From assembly GCA_945897185.1 (NCBI GenBank), contig CAMDFC010000018.1, positions 1-32,667 on the forward strand: DNA of 32,667 nucleotides, in the 5' to 3' direction. A program made the position numbers and the translations under genes. Below are positions 2,289 to 29,876 of the stretch, piece after piece. The notes under the pieces are model-generated. The model worked only from the letters and a program-made list of their open reading frames with translations. It had not been told where the DNA came from and ran no database searches. Source of the stretch: Chitinophaga pinensis. GTDB lineage: Bacteria; Bacteroidota; Bacteroidia; Chitinophagales; Chitinophagaceae. The stretch's first letter is position 1. The number at the start of each line of letters is the position of its first letter.

Positions 2289-3404
2289 TTAAGAAGCTCT
2301 AAAGCCAGTTTTTTTAAGCATCATATCCTTTTTCACTCGATCTACATCCATTGCTACCATTTCTTGAACCAATCCAGATAAATCATATTTTGGTCTCCAA
2401 CCTAACTGCGTTTTTGATTTAGTCGGATCTCCTATGAGTAAATCCACCTCAGTAGGTCGAAAATACTGTGGATCAACAGCTATCACTTGTTTACCAATTT
2501 CTAATTGAAACTCTGGATTAGAACAAGACGCAACAAACCCTTTTTCATTAACACCAAGTCCTTTGAATTCAATTGTAATTCCAACTTCTGCAAATGCCAT
2601 GCGCACGAAATCCCGTACATAGGTTGTTTTACCCATTGCAATTACATAATCATCGGGGTGATCTTGTTGTAAAATGCGCCACATAGCCTCTACATAATCT
2701 TTAGCATGCCCCCAGTCGCGTTGTGCATCTAAATTACCTAAATACAAACAGTCTTGTTGACCTAAAGCAATTGCTGCCGTGGCCATCGTAATTTTACGAG
2801 TGACAAAGGTTTCACCTCTACGCGGCGACTCATGATTGAACAATATCCCATTACAAGCAAACATATTGTATGCCTCTCTATAGTTTTTCGTTATCCAAAA
2901 ACCATAAATTTTTGCAGCACCATATGGGGAACGGGGATAAAATGGAGATTTCTCGTCATAAAGTCCTTTTTCATTCTTGTTCTCCGCCAAACCCCCATAC
3001 AATTCAGAAGTGGAGGCCTGATAAATTCGTGTTTTGTTCTGTAGCCCTAAAATACGAACAGCCTCTAAAATACGCAAAGTCCCTAAACCATCTACATTGG
3101 CTACATATTCTGGAGAATCAAAAGAAACCTTTACATGACTCATAGCGCCCAAGTTGTAGATTTCATCAGGTTGTACTTCTTGAATAATTCGTATAATGTT
3201 AGTAGAATCGGTTAAATCGCCATAATGCAATTTAAAATTGACATGACTCTGATGTTGATCTTGATAAATGTGATCAATCCTTTGGGTGTTAAAAGAGGAA
3301 GCTCTTCTTTTAACACCATGAACCACGTATCCTTTTTCTAATAATAATTCTGCTAGATAAGAACCATCTTGACCAGTGATTCCTGTAATAAGGGCTATTT
3401 TCAT
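2289..3404 (-). CDS. gmd: GDP-mannose 4,6-dehydratase
   Basis: A 371-residue protein that converts GDP-D-mannose to GDP-4-keto-6-deoxy-D-mannose. The N-terminal [10 protein letters not shown] motif, the Gmd-typical [10 protein letters not shown] segment, the TSELYGG region and YGAAKIYG (Tyr/Lys) are all present, with the C-terminal RPTEVDLL-type segment characteristic of Gmd. Length is normal for the family. Together with fcl just downstream it provides GDP-L-fucose. Upstream there is a 132-bp AT-rich gap with a hairpin, so this gene may start a new transcript or be read through from the preceding genes. I did not find a convincing promoter in that gap. Confidence 0.96.
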
Positions 3405-3491
3405 TTCAGTTTTTTTTCTAATTTCTATATAATCTTGATTTACAAATCATCATATGTAAAAAATTCTAGCTAAATATCTAAGACCATTCGA

Positions 3492-3532
3492 TAATATATT
3501 GAACAAATATATATTATTTATTCAATATATTA
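3492..3532 (-). terminator. AT-rich hairpin between the unknown gene and gmd
   Basis: A perfect 12-bp inverted repeat (arms 3492-3503 and 3521-3532, starting TAATATATTGAA) with a 17-base loop. It begins four bases beyond the TAG stop of the gene at 3537-4376. Stem composition is almost all A/T and there is no clear U-tract, so termination is possible but uncertain; it could also be an mRNA-stabilising or recombination-related palindrome. Confidence 0.4.
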
Positions 3533-3536
3533 CTAT

Positions 3537-4376
3537 CTACTTTAAACAATCATAATTCGTCTTAATATTCTTAAGATTTGAAGAACCATAAACTACATAA
3601 TCAAGCGGTAATTTTTTAATATAATGTAGCGATTCTTGAATGTTACTAGCACCACCACTAGACATAATACTCATTCCCATTTTTTTGTAGAGTGATTCTT
3701 TGAATATTAAACCTTCAACCTCATTTAAAGAAGGAAACACATTAAATCCATCTTTATTTATGTTAAAACAAGTAATTAATTGGCTCTGTAAATTCGAGTC
3801 AAATTTAGATATAACTTTGTCCAACAATAAAGGATTCAAGGTAATTAAACCAGGAGAATAACCTTTTGCAATGAGTGACTTGCAGAATGATTCAAGTAAA
3901 TCATATCTCTTCAAGCCTAATAATAAATCAGTTACTATGTTCTGCAAATATACAAAACTACCGTTCTTCAAATTTTTGGGTATTTCTAAATCCAGAATAA
4001 GTGGCAGGATGTACTTTATATTTCCTGTAATTAAAAAAGTAGGAAAATGTAAAAAAATACTTCTGAAAGACGACTTACTAAAAACATATTTCAGCAGCAT
4101 TGACATGCCACCCTCATTTACCATTGAAGCAAATTTATGTGGATATGGAACACTATAGTGAATTTCACCTTTATAGGCCTTGGAAACACTATTGGTAATA
4201 TCATATCCTCGAAGATTCGAGTTCATCATAAACCCTGATAAGCCCACATCCATAGAGGCATCTATAAAAGAAATTATAGTCTTATTATCACTAAATATAT
4301 CTTTGGTTTTATCCCCTTTGTCAATATCATTGTGGTTAACCCCAAAAAACTGATTATCGCCTAAAATTTGTTTCAT
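3537..4376 (-). CDS. Conserved protein of unknown function paired with a Gfo/Idh oxidoreductase
   Basis: A 279-residue soluble protein. The N-terminus reads ILGDNQFFGVNH; mid-protein segments contain YLQNIVTDLLLG and GLITLNPLLLDK; the C-terminus has MGMSIMSSGGAS and DYVVYGSSNLKNI. The alternation of short hydrophobic strands with helices and the Gly-rich C-terminal strand-loop look like a TIM-barrel enzyme, perhaps aldo-keto-reductase- or aldolase-like, but I can name no catalytic residues. I recall similar proteins beside oxidoreductases in other polysaccharide loci. Its ATG overlaps the stop of the Gfo/Idh/MocA gene (ATGA), so the pair is probably co-translated and acts on one substrate. 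Composition is very AT-rich. Function unknown. Confidence 0.7.
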   Translation of the reverse strand: MKQILGDNQFFGVNHNDIDKGDKTKDIFSDNKTIISFIDASMDVGLSGFMMNSNLRGYDITNSVSKAYKGEIHYSVPYPHKFASMVNEGGMSMLLKYVFSKSSFRSIFLHFPTFLITGNIKYILPLILDLEIPKNLKNGSFVYLQNIVTDLLLGLKRYDLLESFCKSLIAKGYSPGLITLNPLLLDKVISKFDSNLQSQLITCFNINKDGFNVFPSLNEVEGLIFKESLYKKMGMSIMSSGGASNIQESLHYIKKLPLDYVVYGSSNLKNIKTNYDCLK

Positions 4377-5314
4377 CGAGTAATGAGATTTTTGATGACT
4401 TGTCTTGTAATTAATGCGTCACTGAGGTTGGAGATAGTATTCCTTGAGCCAATAAAATCTTGCATTTGACTCGTAAACTCAACACCTCGTAAATAGAATG
4501 GAACTTTCTCAGCTAAATCAGCTACAGATATTCTTCTTGATAAAATAGTATTAGTAAAAAGTTCAACTTTTTGTTGATCAAATCTAATTATGGTGCCATC
4601 TTTCATGGTAATGACAAACTTAAACACTGGCTTCCTGTAAGCTTTATTTACCCAATCAAAATGAAAATAATACTTGATTGATTTATCCTCTAAATCAGCA
4701 ATTAATATGTCATCTACATCAGAAATGATTGACTGTGATTGTTTATTAATTATAGTTGGATTAGACACGCCAAATATATGAACACATAAATCAATTATAT
4801 GTGCACCAACTTCATTAGTTACTCCTGAATAAACCCCATTTCTCCAACCTTTGGGTTTTTGTTCAATTGTATTACTAAAATAGAATCCCTCAACATTAGC
4901 TACCTCTTCTATGTTTATAAATTCCTTAACCCACTTAACAATTGGATTAAATCGAAGTACATATCCAATTGCAATATCTTGACTAAAATTTAAAGTCCTT
5001 GAGAAATCATCATTCAAACCTCCGAAAGGCTTCTCCACAAAAATACTAGGAATCTCGTTCCTCACACAATTCTCGAGTATTGGAACATGAAACATAGGAG
5101 GGGTACACACCAAAGCATAATCAAAAGATTCATTTAATCCTTTATCATTACCTATAATTCTTATATTTAAATTCCTCTTTGCAAAATAATTTACTTTCTT
5201 GTCTGGATCCACAAAAAGAAAATCTGCATTCTCAATTAATTGATTTAAAATAGAATAATGGGTCAATCCCATTCTACCGAAACCGTAAATGATAAATTTC
5301 TTACTCATTTTCAT
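4373..5314 (-). CDS. Gfo/Idh/MocA-family oxidoreductase
   Basis: A 313-residue NAD(P)-dependent sugar or inositol oxidoreductase. The Rossmann motif is GFGRMGLTH near residue 11, followed by an acidic strand end (FVDPD) and the family-typical VEKPFGG (EKP) motif near residue 93. A GAHIIDLCVHIFG segment around residue 170 carries the catalytic-region Asp/His found in the C-terminal domain. Two possible starts exist: ATG at 5314 and ATG at 5308. It is the first intact gene after the IS scar and overlaps the unknown gene downstream by 4 bp. Members in polysaccharide clusters oxidise or reduce nucleotide-linked sugars (e.g. WbpB-type 3-oxidation), but the closely coupled partner here is not an aminotransferase, so the substrate is open. 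Confidence 0.85.
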   Translation of the reverse strand: MKMSKKFIIYGFGRMGLTHYSILNQLIENADFLFVDPDKKVNYFAKRNLNIRIIGNDKGLNESFDYALVCTPPMFHVPILENCVRNEIPSIFVEKPFGGLNDDFSRTLNFSQDIAIGYVLRFNPIVKWVKEFINIEEVANVEGFYFSNTIEQKPKGWRNGVYSGVTNEVGAHIIDLCVHIFGVSNPTIINKQSQSIISDVDDILIADLEDKSIKYYFHFDWVNKAYRKPVFKFVITMKDGTIIRFDQQKVELFTNTILSRRISVADLAEKVPFYLRGVEFTSQMQDFIGSRNTISNLSDALITRQVIKNLITR

Positions 5315-5501
5315 TTTTTTATTGCCTTAAAAATAAAATCTGTGTGTTCACATCAATATGTAAGCTCCCTCAATTAGAGTGAGCAGAACTTCATATGGTA
5401 GTCCACGGATTGTAATAGTCCCCTTTTGTCCAACCAGTGATTGACTCGTTTAAGTTTACTCATGCTGCTTTTAGGTAACAATCAATGGGTTTCTCTCTGT
5501 T

Positions 5502-19348: not shown

Positions 19349-19481
19349 TTAACTCAAGTAATTAATCTTGTTTAACACCTGCCCTAATGAACTTGACGAC
19401 TTACAATAGGCTGGAAAAGCGCCTGGAAATTTAGATTTTAAGACATTTGTAATATAATTATTTATGTTCATAATAAATGTG

Positions 19482-20339
19482 TTAATTATTTCTTATTTCT
19501 TTATTAATTCTAATTTGAGCAGAGTATGACTTGATTGTAATTTTTATCAAATTATAATAAAAGCTAAAATTCTTTATTTTAGAATTTTCAAAAAGCAATA
19601 TGATTATTTTTTTTCTAAATAAATTGAAATCTACATATCTACCAGTTATTGAATATGGTTTTCTTTTTGAGCCATTTATTCCTACCCAATAAAGAACCTT
19701 TGGAATGATGAAATATTTTCCCTTGGAAACTAATCTTGAAACAAATAATACATCAGACCAATCGAATGGATCAAGTGGAATGTCAACTATTACAGATTTC
19801 CTATGTATACCATAAATCAAACTAGGTACTAAATCCTCTATTGATCGTTTGATTCTCAGAAAAGAGGAATTTGAACCTATCGAGCTGGGGGTAATCTTTT
19901 CGAGAATATTACCATTATTTATATCAAAAATTTCATAATGAGATAAAACTGACACACAGTCAAGAGAATTATCCAAAATCTCTATGCTCTGCTCCAAAAA
20001 AGTCTGATCTCTTTTGTCATCCACCGCGCACCACATAAAATACTCGCCCACTGATTCATCTAGCACAAACTGAAAATTGGCGACTGGTCCGCGATTTTCC
20101 GTCTGACGTACATAACGAATCCGCGCATCTTTTGCAGCAAATTCTTTACAAATTACTTGAGTTGAATCGGTGGAGCCATTATCAGAAATAATTAACTCAA
20201 AATCGGCATAGGTCTGCGCCAATAATGAAATCATCGCTTCGCGGAGGAAAGGTTCGCCGTTATACACCGGCATGCCGATGCTCACTTTCGGTAATAGCGG
20301 TTGAACTTGTTGTGTTGTATTTTTAGTTTCCATGAGCAT
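19482..20339 (-). CDS. Glycosyltransferase family 2, compositionally chimeric
   Basis: A 285-residue GT2. VSIGMPVYNGEPFLREAM at about residues 20-37 and LIISDNGSTDST near residue 55 are the nucleotide-binding blocks; YFMWCAVDDKRD around residue 104 takes the place of the DxD motif. The first start (ATG 20337-20339) overlaps wzx by 17 bp; a second ATG at 20331-20333 is equally possible. The first third of the gene has moderate GC like wzx, whereas the last half is extremely AT-rich (11 G/C in the 60 bases 19501-19560), with poly-lysine/isoleucine character. A recombination joint inside the gene, roughly 19,950-20,050, is the simplest explanation. Whether the hybrid is active is unknown, but the frame is intact. 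Confidence 0.85.
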   Translation of the reverse strand: MLMETKNTTQQVQPLLPKVSIGMPVYNGEPFLREAMISLLAQTYADFELIISDNGSTDSTQVICKEFAAKDARIRYVRQTENRGPVANFQFVLDESVGEYFMWCAVDDKRDQTFLEQSIEILDNSLDCVSVLSHYEIFDINNGNILEKITPSSIGSNSSFLRIKRSIEDLVPSLIYGIHRKSVIVDIPLDPFDWSDVLFVSRLVSKGKYFIIPKVLYWVGINGSKRKPYSITGRYVDFNLFRKKIIILLFENSKIKNFSFYYNLIKITIKSYSAQIRINKEIRNN

Positions 20340-21846
20340 TAGATTGCCCCATCAATCGAGATTTTAGTAGGTTGAACAATGGCTTTCGTATTTCGCTGGA
20401 CGCGAGAGTAGCCGCGCTCAGGGTGGCGAAGGCTGCCACCACCAGTAATGCCAAGTCGGAGATGCCACCTTGCCATACTACTGGCCACAACCACTGCACA
20501 ACTTTTGCTGTAAGGAGAGAGGCGGCCAAAGGGACTACAACGTCCCCACCATACCAGTGCCACTTCTCTTTCGTCAGAATTCGCTGATACATAAACTGCA
20601 CTGAAATAAGGCAATACCCGGCGTTCAAAATTACCCATATCCATGCGGCACCCATTGAGCCGTATTGCGGCACTATCCACAGAATGGCCGGCACAAATAC
20701 GGCGACGGCAACGACGTTAGACCATATCGCCAAACGCGTCCAGCCATAGGCTAGTTGTGTCTGATAGGGTATCCACATCAAGGCATTTAGTAGCGTACCC
20801 AAGGACAGAACACTCATAAAGGGGGCAACGCGCTCAGCTAATTCGGCATCATGCACCCAAAGCCGTAATAATGTCTCGGCAAAGAAAAAAAGCACAATTG
20901 CTGCACTGCCTACAACGATACTGACCAGTTGCGCGCCTTGATGGTAGTTAGTCGCCAAAGCAGCTGTATTTCCTTGGGCAACAAACTGGCAAAATTTGGG
21001 GTAATACGCTTGGGTAATAGGACCGACTAACATATATAATCCACCAGCAACAGTGGCAGCCAAAGTATAAAGACCATATTCGCTAAGCGTCAATAGTTTG
21101 GATAGCAAAACTTTGTCCACCTGAGTGAGCAATAACGCTAGTAGAGTGACGCCCATCATTCCCCCTGCAAAGCGCAACACGCTTTTCAGTGCATCGACCG
21201 AAAAGCGTCCGCTACGTTCGCCTTTTGGGAAGCAACGGTAAGTGGCAATACCTAATATGGCAAGTGTTGTGATGGATACTAATGCCTGCCAAAGAAAAAA
21301 CGCTCCGATAGTGGGCGCCACCCAGACTAAGATGCCTATGGCGCCTATACTGCGAAGTGTTGCCATGAGACCGTTGACAACATTTAACAACACTTGTCGC
21401 TGCAGGCCAACGAGAGTGCTGCGATAAATGTTCTCAACAAATCGTAATGCGGTTACCAACCCCAAAATCACAAAAGCCTTGGAGACTACTTCGGTGGATA
21501 GGGTTTCAGCACGCAGCCAATCGGTAGCAATCCAGTCGGCGCTTAGGGCAATGCCGCCTGCGATGACCACGGCGATGGCAACTGCGATGATTTCAATGCT
21601 GCGAAGCAAGTCCAAGATAGATTCATTGCTATGGCTGCCACCTGTAAAGCGTGCCATTTCTCGCCCCAAAGTAGGGCTCATGCCCAAGTCAAGCAAAACC
21701 AGAAAAGATTGTAACAATGCAAACAAGCCAATTAGCCCATAGGACTCCATTCCTAGATACTTTATGTAAACTGGGACAAAAGCAATACTCATCAGGACAG
21801 TCCAACCTTGACCTAGGTAGTTAGCAATAAGATTTTTCTTAATCAT
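20323..21846 (-). CDS. wzx: Wzx-type flippase, MATE/PST family polysaccharide transporter
   Basis: A 507-residue membrane protein with about 12-14 hydrophobic segments. The N-terminus KKNLIANYLGQGWTVLMSIA and the YGLIGLFALLQSFLVLLDLGMSPTLGREMAR stretch (in pieces, residues about 35-66) are typical of Wzx/RfbX proteins, which translocate undecaprenyl-linked repeat units to the periplasm. Length is at the upper end for the family. The gene is much richer in G/C than most of the cluster (39 of the 60 bases 20401-20460), and codon use looks proteobacterial, suggesting transfer. It ends inside the start of the GT2 gene and is preceded by about 256 bp without a gene. Confidence 0.92.
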   Translation of the reverse strand: MIKKNLIANYLGQGWTVLMSIAFVPVYIKYLGMESYGLIGLFALLQSFLVLLDLGMSPTLGREMARFTGGSHSNESILDLLRSIEIIAVAIAVVIAGGIALSADWIATDWLRAETLSTEVVSKAFVILGLVTALRFVENIYRSTLVGLQRQVLLNVVNGLMATLRSIGAIGILVWVAPTIGAFFLWQALVSITTLAILGIATYRCFPKGERSGRFSVDALKSVLRFAGGMMGVTLLALLLTQVDKVLLSKLLTLSEYGLYTLAATVAGGLYMLVGPITQAYYPKFCQFVAQGNTAALATNYHQGAQLVSIVVGSAAIVLFFFAETLLRLWVHDAELAERVAPFMSVLSLGTLLNALMWIPYQTQLAYGWTRLAIWSNVVAVAVFVPAILWIVPQYGSMGAAWIWVILNAGYCLISVQFMYQRILTKEKWHWYGGDVVVPLAASLLTAKVVQWLWPVVWQGGISDLALLVVAAFATLSAATLASSEIRKPLFNLLKSRLMGQSNAHGN

Positions 21847-22102
21847 GAGGTTATTTCAAAAAACTGGTCAAAATTTGAGAATACAAACCCTGAAACCAAA
21901 ATGCATAGGCCTATTTTCGTTAAAATATGGTAATAGTGTATCGTGAGTTCAAACAATATTAGAGTGTCAAATGATATCGTTTTAAAAAAATGACTTGTTG
22001 AGAAATAAAAAACTACTACCAACCTGTGCTAGAGCGAGCTCAAATAAATGCGACAAATTTAATCAGCCATTAATTCTTATTTGCGACCAGCTCATGAGTA
22101 AA

Positions 22103-22747
22103 TCACATCAAGCGAAATAAAGATGGAAGAACTGCTTGCCCGATCGTTGCTGTATTTCCAAGCAAACTTAGTGCCTCTACCCAACCCATGCCTTTCTTCC
22201 ACGACTTCTTGGATATTTTCACCCAGTCTGTATCTTGGAGTTCTGGTGGCAAAAGCTTGAGCGCATCAAATGGGGAGACAAGCCCTTCAGCTGCTCCGAT
22301 GATTTTTGTTAAACCAGCAGGTGTCAGCTTCACGTGATCACGTCGTAGCGTGTCACCAGAGTTCAGGCGAAGTCGAGTCATCTTGCGATCAAGCCATATT
22401 CGTAATGCAGCATCATGCAGCGGAATAGAGATATGGTTTTGGTCAGGAATAACTTCTGAATCTTTAAGTAAAGAAACTAACTCTTTGACACCTTCGATAT
22501 CGGTCATGGCCGGCTTGCGCAAGGCGAGATCTGTCAAATATCCGTGAGCTCGCGTCATGGGGATATTGCAACTTTCAGCAACATCTTCTGCCTTTGGAGC
22601 GAGCAATCCAGAATCCACAGCCGCACCAATTAGTACCAACTCTAATTCTCTTTTTGTCAGGCTTCCAAATGGCTGTGCTCGTAGCTTTGTCCAGACTTGA
22701 TCTCCAAACAAGGTTAAAAAGTCAGTCAAATGTATAATTTTCTGCAT
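22103..22747 (-). CDS. Unrecognised protein, GC-rich, possibly winged-helix at the N-terminus
   Basis: A 214-residue soluble protein read from the ATG at 22745-22747 (a TTG one codon upstream is also open). Residues about 28-75 include LTKRELELVLIGAAVDSGLL and AESCNIPMTRAHGYLTDLAL, which could fold as a helix-turn-helix, and a basic patch RKMTRLRLNSGDTLRRDHVKL follows in the middle. The C-terminus has hydrophobic character (VEALSLLGNTATIGQAVL) but no clear membrane segment. I recognise no family. Composition matches wzx, not the flanking AT-rich genes, so it probably arrived with wzx. It is isolated by gene-free gaps of about 256 and 292 bp and has no obvious sugar-metabolic motif; it may be a cargo gene (regulator, defence or addiction) rather than a polysaccharide enzyme. 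Confidence 0.65.
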   Translation of the reverse strand: MQKIIHLTDFLTLFGDQVWTKLRAQPFGSLTKRELELVLIGAAVDSGLLAPKAEDVAESCNIPMTRAHGYLTDLALRKPAMTDIEGVKELVSLLKDSEVIPDQNHISIPLHDAALRIWLDRKMTRLRLNSGDTLRRDHVKLTPAGLTKIIGAAEGLVSPFDALKLLPPELQDTDWVKISKKSWKKGMGWVEALSLLGNTATIGQAVLPSLFRLM

Positions 22748-23039
22748 CAATTTAGTGCCTATAGCTTATCCATATGAGATTCTCACAGGCACTTTTAATG
22801 CACTCTTCAGAATATGAAACAATAATAAAAGGAAATAGATTTATGCCAGCATCGGGAACCGCCGATATTACTTTGTTAGTGTTATCTGTTTACAAAAATA
22901 CAAAGACCCTCAATACGCACCTCGACACATTTTAAAAAAAATAAAGCTATGAACTTCCCACTTGAATCAAAAAAATATCAGAATATCCAACGTCACTCCT
23001 TCGATACCGTAAAAGTCATGCCTAGGTAAAATGCGGCCA
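22748..23039. other. Gene-free spacer at the upstream border of the GC-rich segment
   Basis: About 290 bp with no credible gene. Composition falls back to AT-rich toward 23 kb. It may hold the recombination border of the imported segment, but I see no inverted repeats, integrase motif or clear promoter. Confidence 0.5.
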
Positions 23040-23780
23040 TCAAGAAATCCGCTTCAAATATCCATCAGGTGCAACAGAGATTAATAATTTACTATCAATC
23101 ATTTTGTCGACAATAAAATCATCATTCCGACTTAAAAAATCTCTTACAGCGGTTTTTGGATTATTCCCTACACCCCAGTTTCTAATGCCCCAGTCCCAAT
23201 CTTTTGGCATATCCTCTACAACAGTATCAAATACTACACAGTAACAATCTACGCTAGTTAACTTTGCATATAATTCTAACTCCTGAAGAACGTGGTCATG
23301 TGTATGGTTCGAATCTAGACAAACCATAATTCTTTTCTTTTTTGAAGCTATTTCCTCTACTTGGCTAAAGATATCTTCACTGACAGAAGAACCCTCTAGC
23401 AGTTTAATCCTATTCATCATTGGATGTGATTCAATTAAATCGCGGTTATATTTCCGGATGTCAATATCTATACCTAATACCAGTCCATCCCCTCCAATTA
23501 ATTCCAACAAAGAAGCATAGTAAACGATAGAGCCACCATGCGCAACGCCTGTTTCAATAATTAAATCTGGCTTGGTTTCCCAAATAATTTCCTGCATGGC
23601 TAACATATCCTGAGGTAGTGCAATTATGGGGCGACCCATCCAGGTGAAATTGTAAGAATATTTTAAACTAGCGGTGTCAGCTAAGAATTTTAAACCGAGG
23701 CTAACAAGCTCTTCATTTTTACCTTGAACTTCAATGTTTTTATTTTTTTCTTCAAGGAATTTCTTTACTTCAGGGTGCAT
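23040..23780 (-). CDS. CmcI-like (cephalosporin hydroxylase family) SAM-dependent protein
   Basis: A 246-residue protein of the CmcI/RhmM-like group, which despite the family name has a methyltransferase fold. Visible are TWMGRPIIALPQDM near residue 46, the SAM-site ETGVAHGGS (76-84), LGIDIDIRKYN (about 102-112) and LDSNHTHDHVLQELELY (155-171), with acidic residues (FDTVVED) that may bind a divalent metal as in CmcI. Length is standard. Members in polysaccharide loci are presumed sugar O-methyltransferases. It is the last gene of the CDP-sugar block, 29 bp after another methyltransferase. Substrate unknown. Confidence 0.85.
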   Translation of the reverse strand: MHPEVKKFLEEKNKNIEVQGKNEELVSLGLKFLADTASLKYSYNFTWMGRPIIALPQDMLAMQEIIWETKPDLIIETGVAHGGSIVYYASLLELIGGDGLVLGIDIDIRKYNRDLIESHPMMNRIKLLEGSSVSEDIFSQVEEIASKKKRIMVCLDSNHTHDHVLQELELYAKLTSVDCYCVVFDTVVEDMPKDWDWGIRNWGVGNNPKTAVRDFLSRNDDFIVDKMIDSKLLISVAPDGYLKRIS

Positions 23781-24617: not shown

Positions 24618-25169
24618 TTAAATTTTTATATTTCTTGTTTTAAGGATCTCATTAATTTCAAACCTTATGCTGTCTCCAACCTCACAATGTGCACCTAAAG
24701 TTGTCCCTGTAGAAAAGTAATTGCTGGATCCAACCTTTGAATCGTGCTGAATTGAAATATTATTAAGAAAGTAGTTATTATTTCCAATTTGAACGTTATT
24801 CCCGAAATAAGAATTGTTCATAATTACATTACCAACACCTAAATTATAGTTAATACCAAAAACTACATTCTTGTCAATTATATTAACGAAGGGTACACCA
24901 TTTCCAACTAGTCGATCAAAAATCTGCTTTCGCTCAATTAAATCTCCACCTATTGCAATAATAGCAGCATCAAATTTATCGTTTTCCCAATATTCAAATA
25001 CTTGTTCTGAAGTACCTGTAACCTCCACATCAAATACTTTATAGCCGATCAGACTTTTATCCCTGTCGAAAATTACAAAAGAATAGGGAATCGAGCTTCT
25101 ACTAGCAATCTCGATTATTTGTGCCGCTCCACCATTTTTTGCACTTCCGATAATTGCAACTTTCTTCAT
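24618..25169 (-). CDS. NeuD/PglD-like sugar acetyltransferase, left-handed beta-helix
   Basis: A 183-residue protein. The N-terminal Rossmann-like part opens VAIIGSAKNGGAAQIIE, and DAAIIAIGG lies near residue 68. From about residue 100 a hexapeptide-repeat helix begins (VVFGINYNLGVGNVIMNNS in outline), with His142 in IQHDSKVG the likely catalytic base, as in PglD. The C-terminus is about 15-30 residues shorter than usual, ending soon after the last repeat. The family transfers acetyl to a 4-amino-6-deoxysugar nucleotide (PglD) or to sialic acid (NeuD). Placed directly after a DegT aminotransferase with a 4-bp overlap, N-acylation of its amino product is the natural reading (inference). Confidence 0.83.
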   Translation of the reverse strand: MKKVAIIGSAKNGGAAQIIEIASRSSIPYSFVIFDRDKSLIGYKVFDVEVTGTSEQVFEYWENDKFDAAIIAIGGDLIERKQIFDRLVGNGVPFVNIIDKNVVFGINYNLGVGNVIMNNSYFGNNVQIGNNNYFLNNISIQHDSKVGSSNYFSTGTTLGAHCEVGDSIRFEINEILKTRNIKI

Positions 25170-26269
25170 ATTGTTAATTTTTTAATTACTTCAATTACTC
25201 TATCCAATTCAGTTTTTGTGATATCGTGATAAGATGGTAGGTTAATGGAATAATTTGACAGTAATGTGGAAACCTGATGACCTGAATTGCCAAAAAATGG
25301 AAGAGAACTTAATGGCCAAAAGAATACTCGAGCATCTATATTTTCAGCTAAAAATGCAGCCATCAAAATTTCTCTGGTAACGCCAGTTTCAGGTAAGAAA
25401 GCAACAGTTGGCATCCACGCACCGTTAATTGTCCCACTAGGCTCAGGGTTCATTCTTAACCCTGAGATTTTTTCTAGTCTTTGACGATAATAATTTAGAA
25501 CTTCACGCTTTCGATTTATCAGTTCATCAACCCTGTCCATTTGGGCACAACCAATTGCTGCTTGAATATTAGAAATCTTGTATTTAAATCCAATAACATC
25601 AGGCCAAAACTGTTTTAACTGACTCCGAGACCTTCCATGGTTACTAAGAGTCAATATTTTTTCATATAATTCCTTATCATTTGTTACGAGCATACCTCCT
25701 TCACCGGTAGTAATTGTTTTTGTACCATGAAAAGAAAAAGTTCCAAAACTCCCCATTGAGCCTGCAGATTTACCATGATAAACAGAACCAATTGCTTCTG
25801 CTGAATCTTCGATTAAAGGTATCCCATATTTAGTACTGATTTCCAGTAAACTATGCATATCACATAAATTACCATATAAGTGTACCGCAATTATCGCCTT
25901 TGTTTTAGGAGTGATAGCCTTCTCGACCAATTGAGGATCTAAACACCATGAATCACTTAATATATCTACAAATACTGGTTTAGCGCCTAAATGCACAATT
26001 GGAGCGGCAGTTGCAATCCAATTAGTATCTGCCATGATAACTTCATCGCCAGGACTTATTCCAAGCGCTGCCATGCCCATGTGCAATGCACCCGTACAAC
26101 TCGAAGTAGCTATCGCATAATCAACCCCGAGATGTTTCTTGAAAGATTCCTCAAAACGATTAATGTACTCGTAACACCGATCACCCCAACCATTGATAGC
26201 TGCATCATTTGAATAACTAACTTCCAGATCGGTAATGGAGGGTTTAGTATAAAGTATTCTAGGCTTCAT
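25166..26269 (-). CDS. DegT/DnrJ/EryC1/StrS-family PLP aminotransferase
   Basis: A 367-residue sugar aminotransferase. Conserved blocks include ATSSCTGALHMGMAALG (54-70), DTNWIATAAP (81-90), IEDSAEAIGS with Asp155 contacting PLP, and SFHGTKTITTGEGG with Lys184 as the Schiff-base lysine. The lysine shows it is a transaminase and not an RfbH/ColD-type dehydratase, where it is His. Perosamine- or viosamine-type 4-aminotransferases are the closest in pattern; position of amination (C3 or C4) cannot be read. Overlaps by 4 bp with both the C-methyltransferase upstream and the acetyltransferase downstream, placing it firmly in the CDP-sugar pathway. Confidence 0.93.
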   Translation of the reverse strand: MKPRILYTKPSITDLEVSYSNDAAINGWGDRCYEYINRFEESFKKHLGVDYAIATSSCTGALHMGMAALGISPGDEVIMADTNWIATAAPIVHLGAKPVFVDILSDSWCLDPQLVEKAITPKTKAIIAVHLYGNLCDMHSLLEISTKYGIPLIEDSAEAIGSVYHGKSAGSMGSFGTFSFHGTKTITTGEGGMLVTNDKELYEKILTLSNHGRSRSQLKQFWPDVIGFKYKISNIQAAIGCAQMDRVDELINRKREVLNYYRQRLEKISGLRMNPEPSGTINGAWMPTVAFLPETGVTREILMAAFLAENIDARVFFWPLSSLPFFGNSGHQVSTLLSNYSINLPSYHDITKTELDRVIEVIKKLTI

Positions 26270-27489
26270 AAAATTTTAAGTTTAGGTATCGATACTACAA
26301 ACTTTGTTCCTCGTGCCAATAGTTCCTTATTTTGTTCAATAACCTCACATGCAATATTCCATGGAAGAATAATTATGTAATCTGCATTTTCGTCCATTAT
26401 TGCAGCTGGTGGCAGAATGGGAATATGGCTACCCGGCATAAACTTGTTTTGTTTTGCTTCAGCAGCATCACAAACAAAAGATAAGAGATCCGGTTTTATA
26501 CCTGCGTAGTTAAGTAGCGTATTTCCCTTTGCCGCGGCACCGTATGCTACAACCTTTTTACCCGCTCGTTTTTGTTTTATCAGGAATTCCAGCAAATCAT
26601 ACTTTACATAATCTGCCTGCTCCTGAAAAGAAATATAGGTTGCCAATTGCATTAAGCCTGCATTACATTCTACCTTCATAAGATCGCTAACAGCCTGACT
26701 TGTTGGGCGCCGATCGCCTTCATGACAACCAAAAATCCGGAGACTACCACCATGTGTGGGTAACTCTTCTACATCAAATATTCGCAAGCCAGCTGTGGTA
26801 AAAATTCTACTAACAGCATGGAGTGATAAATAAGAAAAGTGCTCGTGATATACCGTGTCAAATTGGTTATTTTCAATGAGGCGCATCAGATGGGGGAACT
26901 CGAGTGTGATAGTACCACCTTGTTTCAATGCTTCCTTAAGTCCAATTGTGAAATCGTTAATATCAGGCACATGAGCGTACACATTATTGCCGATGATAAG
27001 GTCAGCTTGTTGATATTCGGACGCGATTTTTTTCGCAATCTGCTCGCCAAAAAATTCCCGAAGAACCGGTATGCCCAGCTTTTCCGCCGCATCAGCTGTG
27101 CTCGTAGTTGGCTCAATACCCAAACAAGGTACACCTGCTGCAACGAAATTCTTTAATAAGTATCCGTCGTTAGAAGCAACTTCAATGACGTAGCTCTTAT
27201 CCGAAAGATTGAGCTGTGTAGTCATCTTCTCGCAATAAGCCGCTGCATGATGCAACCAACTGGTTGAAGTACTGGAAAAATATGCATAGTCTGCACTAAA
27301 AAGCTCGTCAGCCTGTGCATAGTCTTCCGTCTGAGCCAGCCAGCACTCATCGCAGATCATAATTTTTAATGGGTAATATTTCTCGGGTAATGAAAGTTGA
27401 TCTTTCGTCAAATACGCATTTGAAGGTGGTGCAAAACCAAGATCAAGAAATGTATGCGAAAGTGCTTTATCGCAATGCCTGCAATTCAT
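26266..27489 (-). CDS. NDP-hexose C-methyltransferase (TylCIII/TcaB9-like)
   Basis: A 407-residue three-part enzyme. Cys3, Cys6, Cys46 and Cys49 form the N-terminal zinc site (Methyltransf_13 domain). SAM is bound by VIEVASNDGYLL (101-112). YHEHFSY at 214-220 supplies the Tyr, Glu and His used by TylCIII-type 3-C-methyltransferases. The C-terminal Methyltransf_14 domain contains VVAYGAAAKGNTLLNYAG. The family adds a methyl carbon, usually at C3, to a 4-keto-6-deoxy sugar nucleotide. Directly after RfbF, RfbG and an RmlC-like epimerase, the substrate is probably a CDP-4-keto-6-deoxyhexose (inference), giving a branched-chain sugar. Overlaps both neighbours by 4 bp (ATGA). Confidence 0.92.
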   Translation of the reverse strand: MNCRHCDKALSHTFLDLGFAPPSNAYLTKDQLSLPEKYYPLKIMICDECWLAQTEDYAQADELFSADYAYFSSTSTSWLHHAAAYCEKMTTQLNLSDKSYVIEVASNDGYLLKNFVAAGVPCLGIEPTTSTADAAEKLGIPVLREFFGEQIAKKIASEYQQADLIIGNNVYAHVPDINDFTIGLKEALKQGGTITLEFPHLMRLIENNQFDTVYHEHFSYLSLHAVSRIFTTAGLRIFDVEELPTHGGSLRIFGCHEGDRRPTSQAVSDLMKVECNAGLMQLATYISFQEQADYVKYDLLEFLIKQKRAGKKVVAYGAAAKGNTLLNYAGIKPDLLSFVCDAAEAKQNKFMPGSHIPILPPAAIMDENADYIIILPWNIACEVIEQNKELLARGTKFVVSIPKLKIL

Positions 27490-28061
27490 AGTATTGTAAT
27501 TCCTTTAAAATTTATATTTATCAATCGGTGAGAACGATCACGTTCTGAGTTCACTGTGATTTGAAGCGGCCAATGTATTGCCAATTCTGGATCGTCAAAT
27601 CTTACACCTGCTTCAGCCTCGGCTCTATAAGCTTCACTATGGAAATAAATCAACTCGCAATTATTTGTCATTGTTTGAAACCCATGCCCGAAACCCTCAG
27701 GTATCAGCAAAGCTCTCCCATTCTCGGCAGAAAGCAGTTCTGCGTGCCATTTCAAAAAAGTTGGAGATCCCTGTCGCAGATCAACAGCTACATCCCAAAC
27801 TTCGCCTCGCACACAGGTAACTAACTTCATTTCGGTATATGGCGAGTTTTGATAGTGTATACCCCGCACGGTTCCAGCATGTTCGGTCAACGTATGATTT
27901 ATCTGAATTATCGGCTTATTCCAACCGGCATCTGCAAGATCTTCCGCACAGAACAATCGCGATAAAAATCCCCGCTCGTCACCAATCCGATTTCTCTCAA
28001 TCACCATTGGACCCTTTATAGGGAGATCGGTTATTGTGAAGCGATTATTTCTTAGACTCAT
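27486..28061 (-). CDS. RmlC-family sugar-nucleotide 3,5-epimerase (CDP-sugar pathway)
   Basis: A 191-residue cupin of the dTDP-4-dehydrorhamnose 3,5-epimerase family. RGIHYQ carries the catalytic His, DVAVDLRQGSP the Asp paired with it, IPEGFGHGFQTM the conserved cupin strand, and YFHSEAYRAEAEAGVRFDDP the Tyr and the family-typical C-terminal block. All catalytic positions look intact. No dTDP-glucose genes are present; it overlaps RfbG upstream by 17 bp and the C-methyltransferase downstream by 4 bp, so a CDP-4-keto-6-deoxyglucose (3- or 5-) epimerase is the sensible reading (inference). Epimerisation at C3 also helps C3 methylation, as in TylCIII-type pathways. Confidence 0.88.
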   Translation of the reverse strand: MSLRNNRFTITDLPIKGPMVIERNRIGDERGFLSRLFCAEDLADAGWNKPIIQINHTLTEHAGTVRGIHYQNSPYTEMKLVTCVRGEVWDVAVDLRQGSPTFLKWHAELLSAENGRALLIPEGFGHGFQTMTNNCELIYFHSEAYRAEAEAGVRFDDPELAIHWPLQITVNSERDRSHRLININFKGITIL

Positions 28062-29103
28062 AGTAAGTAATATCCCGTTCGCATAACTCTACTGCAGAAG
28101 TTCCTTCAGCAAGCAGCTTATACCAGCTCATAGTCTTCTTAATTGCATCATTTAAAGACAGGCGTGGATTAAACCCCAATATTTCTCTCGCCTTTGAAAT
28201 TTCTAGTGCCAAACAGCCGGCCTCATGCAGCCCGTCATTTGTCTCACTATAAAAAATAGTTCCGGTCTCATGAATTTTCAATGCTGAATCAATCAACTGA
28301 CGCACTGTCGCAGCATCATGGGATTGTGGGCCAAAATTATATGCTCCTGCCAACTCTGGGTTGTCCCATAATTTTTCAGCTAACAAGAGGTATCCGGAAA
28401 GGGGCTCAAGTACGTGTTGCCAGGGTCGTTTTGCTTCAGGTCTTCTTACCTGAAGGTCCGTTCCAGATTGCCAGGAACGGATAGCATCAGGGATGAGTCT
28501 GTCTTCCGACCAATCGCCGCCACCAATCACATTTCCTGCACGCGCGGAGGCGACAGCAATGCCCTGTGCCGACAAAAAAGACTGCCGGTAAGAATTTATA
28601 ACAATCTCAGAAGCAGCTTTACTTGAGCTGTATGGGTCGTGTCCGCCTAAAGCATCAGTTTCCTTGTAAGGCCATACCCATTCATTGTTATGATATACTT
28701 TATCTGTAGTTATCATTACCGCCACGCGGGTGCTTTTTGCTCCCCGTAAACACTCGAGTACATTTGCCGATCCTATTATATTTGTCGAGAATGTAAGCAG
28801 GGGGTCTTGATAACTTGCCCTAACCAATGGTTGAGCGGCTAAATGGAATACAATCTCAGGATCAGCCTGATCAATTATTGCAGATAGTTTTTCCAGGTCG
28901 CGGATATCGCAGAAATGACTGTCACAAAATGCGGAAACATTAGAAAGTTCAAACAAACTAGGGGATGTACTTGGTGCTAAGCCGATACCTGTAATTTCAG
29001 CACCCATCTTCTTAAGCCACAATGTAAGCCACCCACCCTTGAAACCGGTATGTCCCGTGACTAACACTCGCTTATTATGCCAAAAGTTTTTAGTGTAACT
29101 CAT
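28045..29103 (-). CDS. rfbG: CDP-glucose 4,6-dehydratase
   Basis: A 352-residue SDR read from the ATG at 29101-29103, which shares a base with the RfbF stop (TAATG). An ATG at 29121 would add six residues; the family usually begins shortly before FWxxKRV, which favours 29103. NAD is bound by VLVTGHTGFKGGWL; FHLAAQPLVRASYQDP, TTDKVYHN and DPYSSSKAASE supply the typical catalytic Thr, Asp/Lys and Tyr/Lys residues, and ARAGNVIGGGDWSEDRLIPD is a strong RfbG signature. It makes CDP-4-keto-6-deoxy-D-glucose from the RfbF product. Composition is richer in G/C than the AT-rich background (36 of 60 bases at 28501-28560). Confidence 0.96.
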   Translation of the reverse strand: MSYTKNFWHNKRVLVTGHTGFKGGWLTLWLKKMGAEITGIGLAPSTSPSLFELSNVSAFCDSHFCDIRDLEKLSAIIDQADPEIVFHLAAQPLVRASYQDPLLTFSTNIIGSANVLECLRGAKSTRVAVMITTDKVYHNNEWVWPYKETDALGGHDPYSSSKAASEIVINSYRQSFLSAQGIAVASARAGNVIGGGDWSEDRLIPDAIRSWQSGTDLQVRRPEAKRPWQHVLEPLSGYLLLAEKLWDNPELAGAYNFGPQSHDAATVRQLIDSALKIHETGTIFYSETNDGLHEAGCLALEISKAREILGFNPRLSLNDAIKKTMSWYKLLAEGTSAVELCERDITYYESKK

Positions 29104-29876
29104 TATTTCCAGATTTTCCATGGAGCGTTTCCGCTTGACCAGAGTTCCTCGAGTAAATTCTTTTCCCTAAGAGTATCCATAGGTTGCCAAAAGCCATCAT
29201 GCACAAAAGCCATCATCTGGCCAATTTCAGCAAGCTTTGTAAGCGGTTCGCCTTCCCAACTCGATAGATCATTATCAATAAATTCCAAAACCTTAGGAGA
29301 AAGAACGAAAAAGCCCCCGTTAATTAACCCTCCATCGCCTCGTGGCTTCTCAACGAAACCTTTAACCAGACCATCCCGATGCTCTATTGCTCCATATCGC
29401 CCAGGTGGTTGAACGGCGGTAATACTTGCAAGTTTGCCGTGATTAAGGTGAAACTGGACACTTTTTGCGATATCTACATCACTTAAACCGTCACCGTAAG
29501 TGAAACAAAAAGCTTCTTCATTTTCGATGAAGCTTTTTACACGTTTAAGGCGCCCACCCGTTAACGTATTATCTCCAGTATCTACTAAGGTGATCTTCCA
29601 GGGCTCAGCGTATTGCTGATGAACTTCCATCTGATTTGACGCAATATCAAACGTGACGTCCGACATATGAAGGAAATAATTTGCGAAATATTCTTTTATA
29701 ATGTAACCTTTATAACCGCAGCATATAATAAAGTCATTCACACCGTGAGAGGAATACAATTTCATAATATGCCATAAAATTGGTTTCCCACCAATTTCGA
29801 TCATTGGTTTAGGCTTAAGGTGTGTTTCTTCAGAAATCCGGGTACCTAATCCCCCTGCAAGTATGACGGCTTTCAT
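29103..29876 (-). CDS. rfbF: Glucose-1-phosphate cytidylyltransferase
   Basis: A 257-residue nucleotidyltransferase, the exact family length. MKAVILAGGLGTRISEET is the nucleotide-binding loop, KPKPMIEIGGKPILWHIM the following sugar-nucleotide block, and YGDGLSDVD the metal-binding Asp region near residue 130; VQPPGRYGAI and FVEKPRGD are typical of RfbF. It forms CDP-glucose from CTP and glucose-1-phosphate, the committed step of the CDP-sugar branch. It is the first gene of a compact overlapping block, preceded by a 225-bp gap holding a candidate promoter at 30028-30058. Confidence 0.97.
   Translation of the reverse strand: MKAVILAGGLGTRISEETHLKPKPMIEIGGKPILWHIMKLYSSHGVNDFIICCGYKGYIIKEYFANYFLHMSDVTFDIASNQMEVHQQYAEPWKITLVDTGDNTLTGGRLKRVKSFIENEEAFCFTYGDGLSDVDIAKSVQFHLNHGKLASITAVQPPGRYGAIEHRDGLVKGFVEKPRGDGGLINGGFFVLSPKVLEFIDNDLSSWEGEPLTKLAEIGQMMAFVHDGFWQPMDTLREKNLLEELWSSGNAPWKIWK

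Follow-up and report, generated by a model that had tools for sequence, protein, structure and literature searches.

A compositionally foreign flippase and a compositional edge in or near a glycosyltransferase gene in a surface-sugar gene cluster of Chitinophaga pinensis

When base composition changes abruptly inside the open reading frame of a glycosyltransferase, does the change mark the joint between two fused enzymes, or the edge of a gene module exchanged at the locus? We addressed this question in a 32,667-nucleotide stretch of Chitinophaga pinensis DNA (contig CAMDFC010000018.1; hereafter, the window). The original prediction had proposed an imported GC-rich segment whose recombination joint lies within a GT2-family glycosyltransferase gene (hereafter, GT). 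By its gene content, which includes TonB/T9SS-type proteins, the assembly reads as Bacteroidota. The features on which the analysis rests are collected in Table 1.

Table 1 Coordinates of features in and around the GC-rich block.
Feature	Position	Strand	Characteristics and basis
AT-rich stretch	19431..19950		Spans the 3' portion of the GT gene plus the downstream spacer; segmentation
GT2-family glycosyltransferase	19482..20339	(-)	285 aa, intact frame; PF00535, composition, AF2 model, Foldseek
Interval most likely holding the compositional edge	19830..20021		GT codons 107-170 (range within 2 log units), best codon 121; single change point in corrected GC; raw segmentation 19951-20021
GC-rich block, probable import	19951..22710		Segmentation; without a DNA relative in the genus, plasmids or E. 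coli
Polysaccharide (O-unit) flippase, Wzx/MOP type	20323..21846	(-)	PF01943, PF13440; codon-GC outlier
Uncharacterized ORF	22103..22750	(-)	215 aa; no family match
RMNT_CmcI-type methyltransferase	23040..23780	(-)	PF04989, E 6e-87; last cassette gene and right-hand neighbor of the block
Cassette DegT aminotransferase - C-methyltransferase - rfbC - rfbG - rfbF (CDP-deoxysugar synthesis)	25166..29876	(-)	Pfam/NCBIfam; synteny

Base composition of the block and of its genes

The base counts given in the original prediction (39 of 60 G+C at 20401-20460, 11 of 60 at 19501-19560) were both exact on recount. Penalized segmentation of the whole window delimited a GC-rich block of roughly 2.7 kb inside a surface-sugar gene cluster (GC 0.458; genome baseline 0.383, with a standard deviation of 0.032 per 500 bp, from a sample of ~374 kb of other contigs), and this block is directly adjoined by an AT-rich stretch with a GC of 0.25. 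The left edge of the block lies inside the GT frame and, both in this segmentation and under the strictest penalty (which yields a block of 20021-22700), falls within the region around 19,950-20,050 where the change had been placed. The right-hand edge corresponds to the end of a recurrent cassette module, described below. Repeats flanking the block were looked for, and none were found. Elsewhere in the window, segmentation delimited a second compositional patch, AT-rich with a GC of 0.30, at 3171-5340, which covers the genes at 3537-4376 and 4373-5314.

Synonymous GC was scored by comparing each gene with versions that encode the same protein but have their codons sampled from genome usage, with 148 genome genes as the baseline. 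On this amino-acid-corrected scale, the composition of the flippase is foreign, with a Z of 7.8 that none of the 148 genome genes reaches. The flippase and the ORF at 22.1 kb had both been described as strongly GC-rich; this holds for the flippase, but the ORF is borderline (Z 2.6, about the 95th percentile of the genome) and may fall outside the import of the flippase. The rfb genes in the window also have a GC of 0.43, with synonymous Z values not above 2.6. The ORF matches no Pfam, NCBIfam, or PADLOC family, and searches of sampled Bacteroidota genomes, of plasmids and phages, and of viral contigs gave no significant relative. Its low-confidence model (pLDDT 63) gave a Foldseek match to Lpg1083 (TM 0.32), which was set aside as unreliable because the sequence search was empty.

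The flippase matches the Polysacc_synt/MOP superfamily in Pfam (PF01943, E 1.3e-18; PF13440, E 4.5e-12), and its end overlaps the start of the GT gene by 17 bases. Judging from its family, the predicted flippase would carry a polysaccharide repeat unit across the membrane. A homologue with 54-55% identity was found in genome G580 (locus L080), while just two weak homologues (30% and 20%) turned up among 40 other genomes of the genus. The closest flippase homologue, at locus L066, is itself GC-poor (GC 0.366).

Within the GT gene, GC was 0.434 in codons 1-116 versus 0.272 in codons 117-285, whereas the amino acids alone would give 0.401 and 0.310, respectively, so that about half of the step is accounted for by amino-acid composition. 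Synonymous GC was mildly high in the first part (Z 2.2) and low in the second (Z -3.2), the latter mostly from the last 65 codons; the strongest raw break is found at codon 233, within the very AT-rich tail of the gene, and not at codons 105-130. AT-rich 3' ends also occur in other genes of the cluster. When the amino-acid-corrected GC of flippase and GT was analyzed jointly with a single change point, the best break, at GT codon 121, fitted 8.3 log units better than one at the gene boundary. With the GT analyzed alone, the synonymous break was placed at codon 168, and a stronger internal break was seen in only one of 212 genome genes. This places the break among the strongest 1% in genome genes, which is more than usual for a gene of single origin. 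The GC difference between the N- and C-terminal halves is likewise distinctive: it amounts to 0.178 in the GT versus at most 0.065 among 35 related GT2 genes, none of which shares a comparable shift. Inverted repeats were seen between the interior of the GT gene and the downstream spacer; their layout does not fit a single inverted duplication, and they were put down to chance. Analysis of GC and codon usage, as proposed at the outset, recovers a break within the frame, but about half of the raw step reflects protein composition and the strongest raw break lies elsewhere. The shift in composition is real and exceptional, but it can be located only approximately and looks larger in raw GC than it is. 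Together, these data support, with moderate strength, a compositional boundary inside the GT gene or close to it.

Ancestry of the two glycosyltransferase halves

Several features describe the GT as a regular member of its family. It matches PF00535 with an E-value of 5e-27 (95.3 bits, cut-off 23.3), and residues D107, D108, and D196 are invariant in the GT alignment (A1), where they would correspond to a DXD-like metal/donor motif and to an acidic residue of the C-terminal half. The AlphaFold (AF2) model has a mean pLDDT of 67, with residues 21-80 mostly above 85, and displays the GT-A elements in canonical order across both halves, through residue ~221. Its top Foldseek matches are GT-A enzymes. 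The GT resembles SpsA (1qg8), a Leptospira GT (6p61), and the Pasteurella heparosan synthase (8vh8) in the order of GT-A strands and helices and in belonging to PF00535, although identity to these enzymes is only ~20%. By analogy with its family, the GT probably contributes one sugar to the repeat unit.

Full-length colinear homologues of the GT were identified in Cyanobacteria (L026), Actinomycetota (L059, and L086 by content), Alphaproteobacteria (L060, L062), and Bacteroidota (L093, L094, L096, L102). Locus L086 (MT835644.1), although labelled "Bacteriophage sp.", is a polysaccharide gene cluster with a GC of 0.73 and is most likely a bacterial (actinobacterial) contig. Compared with its relatives, the GT displays a drop in identity from about 55% to about 20% at residue ~117, in the region of the composition edge. 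This drop was rejected as support for a fusion, since subfamily members lacking a composition step show the same drop when compared with one another: across subfamily pairs, N-terminal halves are ~50-60% alike and C-terminal halves mostly 15-36%, and the GT behaves like L102a, L102b, and L088 (median 0.53 for the N-terminal half, 0.17 for the C-terminal half).

Maximum-likelihood trees of the separate halves both group the GT with the GT2 genes of locus L102. In the N-half tree, the splits GT+L102a and GT+L102a+L102b received support values of 89 and 90, respectively, and in the C-half tree the split GT+L102b received 81, with long branches and C-half identities of ~17-25%. The C-terminal half also matched a subfamily C-half profile with 21-26 bits, while shuffled controls reached a maximum of 1.4-4.1. 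A separate search with the C-terminal half, as had been suggested, yielded chance matches only and no independent relatives across genomes, plasmids, and viral contigs. Candidate matches in G223, G601, G514, and an Arthrobacter plasmid proved to be chance on alignment, none being a glycosyltransferase; two of them, which by eye look MoeA-like and enolase-superfamily-like, are plainly unrelated. Searches of the family, phylum, plasmids, phages, and viral sequences found no parental full-length GT gene.

A fusion of two different GT2 enzymes, the in-frame hybrid of the original prediction, is therefore not supported by these comparisons, because homologues are colinear over their full length, both halves have common relatives, the C-terminal half matches the subfamily profile, and the GT-A elements retain their order. 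Both halves appear instead to share their closest relatives, the L102 GT2 genes, with moderate support and a weak C-half signal, an outcome that the original prediction itself had named as refuting a hybrid. The GT looks like an intact GT2 of single ancestry, from one subfamily whose members are found again and again beside rfbF/C-methyltransferase cassettes.

A recurrent cassette with exchangeable neighbors

Upstream of the block, and on the same strand, lies a cassette comprising rfbF (TIGR02623), rfbG (TIGR02622), rfbC, a C-methyltransferase (PF08484), a DegT aminotransferase, and the RMNT_CmcI-type methyltransferase. Its core, rfbF-rfbG-rfbC-C-methyltransferase, recurs in L102 (G678), L080 (G580), L081 (G005), and L118 (G176, from the same genus), and homologues of the CmcI-type gene were found in L080, L102, and L118 with 50-55% identity. 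The window resembles these CDP-deoxysugar O-antigen cassettes in gene families and in the order of rfbF, rfbG, rfbC, and the C-methyltransferase, and differs from them in its downstream neighbors. The CmcI-type gene is followed by the uncharacterized ORF, the GC-rich flippase, and the GT in the window, by a flippase (54% identity) and another GT in L080, by two GT2 genes of the GT's own subfamily in L102, and by purB in L118; the gene adjoining the rfbFGC/CmcI-like cassette was different in every genome examined. In L102, a Bacteroidota locus, the two adjacent GT2 genes have overlapping frames (L102:8279-9876) and lie within a matching rfbFGC/DegT/CmcI-like cassette, and GT2 genes of the same subfamily also adjoin rfb cassettes in L104, L105, and L089. 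Since the cassette recurs with different neighbors in four other genomes, the arrangement in the window corresponds to ordinary modular exchange at an O-antigen locus. At one end of the L080 contig (G580:C93) lies a group II intron-type reverse transcriptase; the contig also encodes a UDP-glucose dehydrogenase that, judged by eye, is of a proteobacterial type, possibly through mis-binning or recent transfer.

At the DNA level, relatives of the region among the 40 other genomes of the genus were restricted to the two genes that flank the block, an epimerase gene and, opposite it, the CmcI-type gene; the block itself (19.35-23.0 kb) had none. Searches of plasmids and E. coli genomes gave no DNA-level relative of the block either, so that no donor was identified, and viral contigs searched with the C-terminal half of the GT, the flippase, and the ORF gave no match.

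Explanations for the locus and their implications

The import of a segment of foreign composition, as originally proposed, is supported by the outlying flippase, by a block without DNA relatives in the genus, and by a cassette with exchangeable neighbors. These data favor an imported module of orf and wzx that has one edge within the GT gene or close to it; the import event itself, the order of events, and the role of the enzyme are what we infer from them. On balance, we favor the view that a module was swapped in beside a common CDP-deoxysugar cassette of a surface-polysaccharide (O-antigen type) cluster, the GT being a single-subfamily GT2. The imported module would include the flippase and, in all probability, the small ORF, together with an allele of the GT or at least its 5' part, and its exchange would have given rise to the GC-rich block. 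In the resulting pathway, the flippase would move the repeat unit across the membrane after the GT has added one of its sugars. The edge within the GT gene may trace back to homologous crossing-over of related alleles of a single GT. Several points count against this reading, namely the GC-poor composition of the closest flippase homologue, the weakness of the C-half tree, the lack of a DNA-level donor, the unusually strong internal synonymous break, and an ORF that may have a separate origin from the import. An alternative without any import, in which the region is old in the lineage and its uneven GC results from protein composition together with local mutation and chance, would accommodate the share of the GT step explained by amino-acid content, the borderline ORF, and the rfb genes, which reach a similar GC without being synonymous outliers; yet it is already strained by the flippase, unmatched among genome genes, and by a block lacking genus relatives that its neighbors have, and we consider it improbable.

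How far the GT gene itself is recombinant is a separate matter. That the N-terminal half of one GT2 was joined to the C-terminal half of a different GT2 would explain the fall in identity near the composition edge, but the equal fall in relatives of even composition, the closest relatives common to both halves, and a C-terminal half that matches the subfamily profile and has no independent relatives make it very unlikely. A mosaic of two alleles from one lineage, in which homologous recombination in the conserved GT-A core placed an imported 5' part ahead of an AT-rich 3' part already resident, is a serious contender that falls somewhat short of an even chance. It draws on the corrected break located inside the gene, on an N-C difference exceeding that of all 35 homologues, on the rarity of stronger internal breaks in the genome, and on documented recombination hybrids of glycosyltransferases in Helicobacter pylori (PMC6892558); however, no parental allele was found, the break shifts when the GT is analyzed alone, and amino-acid content accounts for about half of the step. 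That the GT is a natural in-frame mosaic, produced when an allele imported with the flippase recombined with a resident allele in the conserved GT-A core, we regard as rather doubtful.

In H. pylori, recombination within glycosyltransferase genes among the LPS genes leads to in-frame hybrids (PMC6892558). The window is similar to these hybrids (HP1105 alleles, HPB8_399) in the proposed in-frame joining of N- and C-terminal parts by recombination at a surface-glycan locus. The H. pylori hybrids have known parental alleles, and sequence data show their joint (PMC6892558), whereas for the GT of the window the searches gave no parent and both halves have common closest relatives; it would be a further, weaker example. 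If the GT is a mosaic, one donor-binding half could pair with another acceptor half and thereby alter a surface sugar. If the joint is real, flippase and glycosyltransferase modules would be swapped via a crossover inside the transferase gene, which offers a simple way of generating new surface sugars, and the locus would represent one more case of modular O-antigen evolution rather than a new principle.
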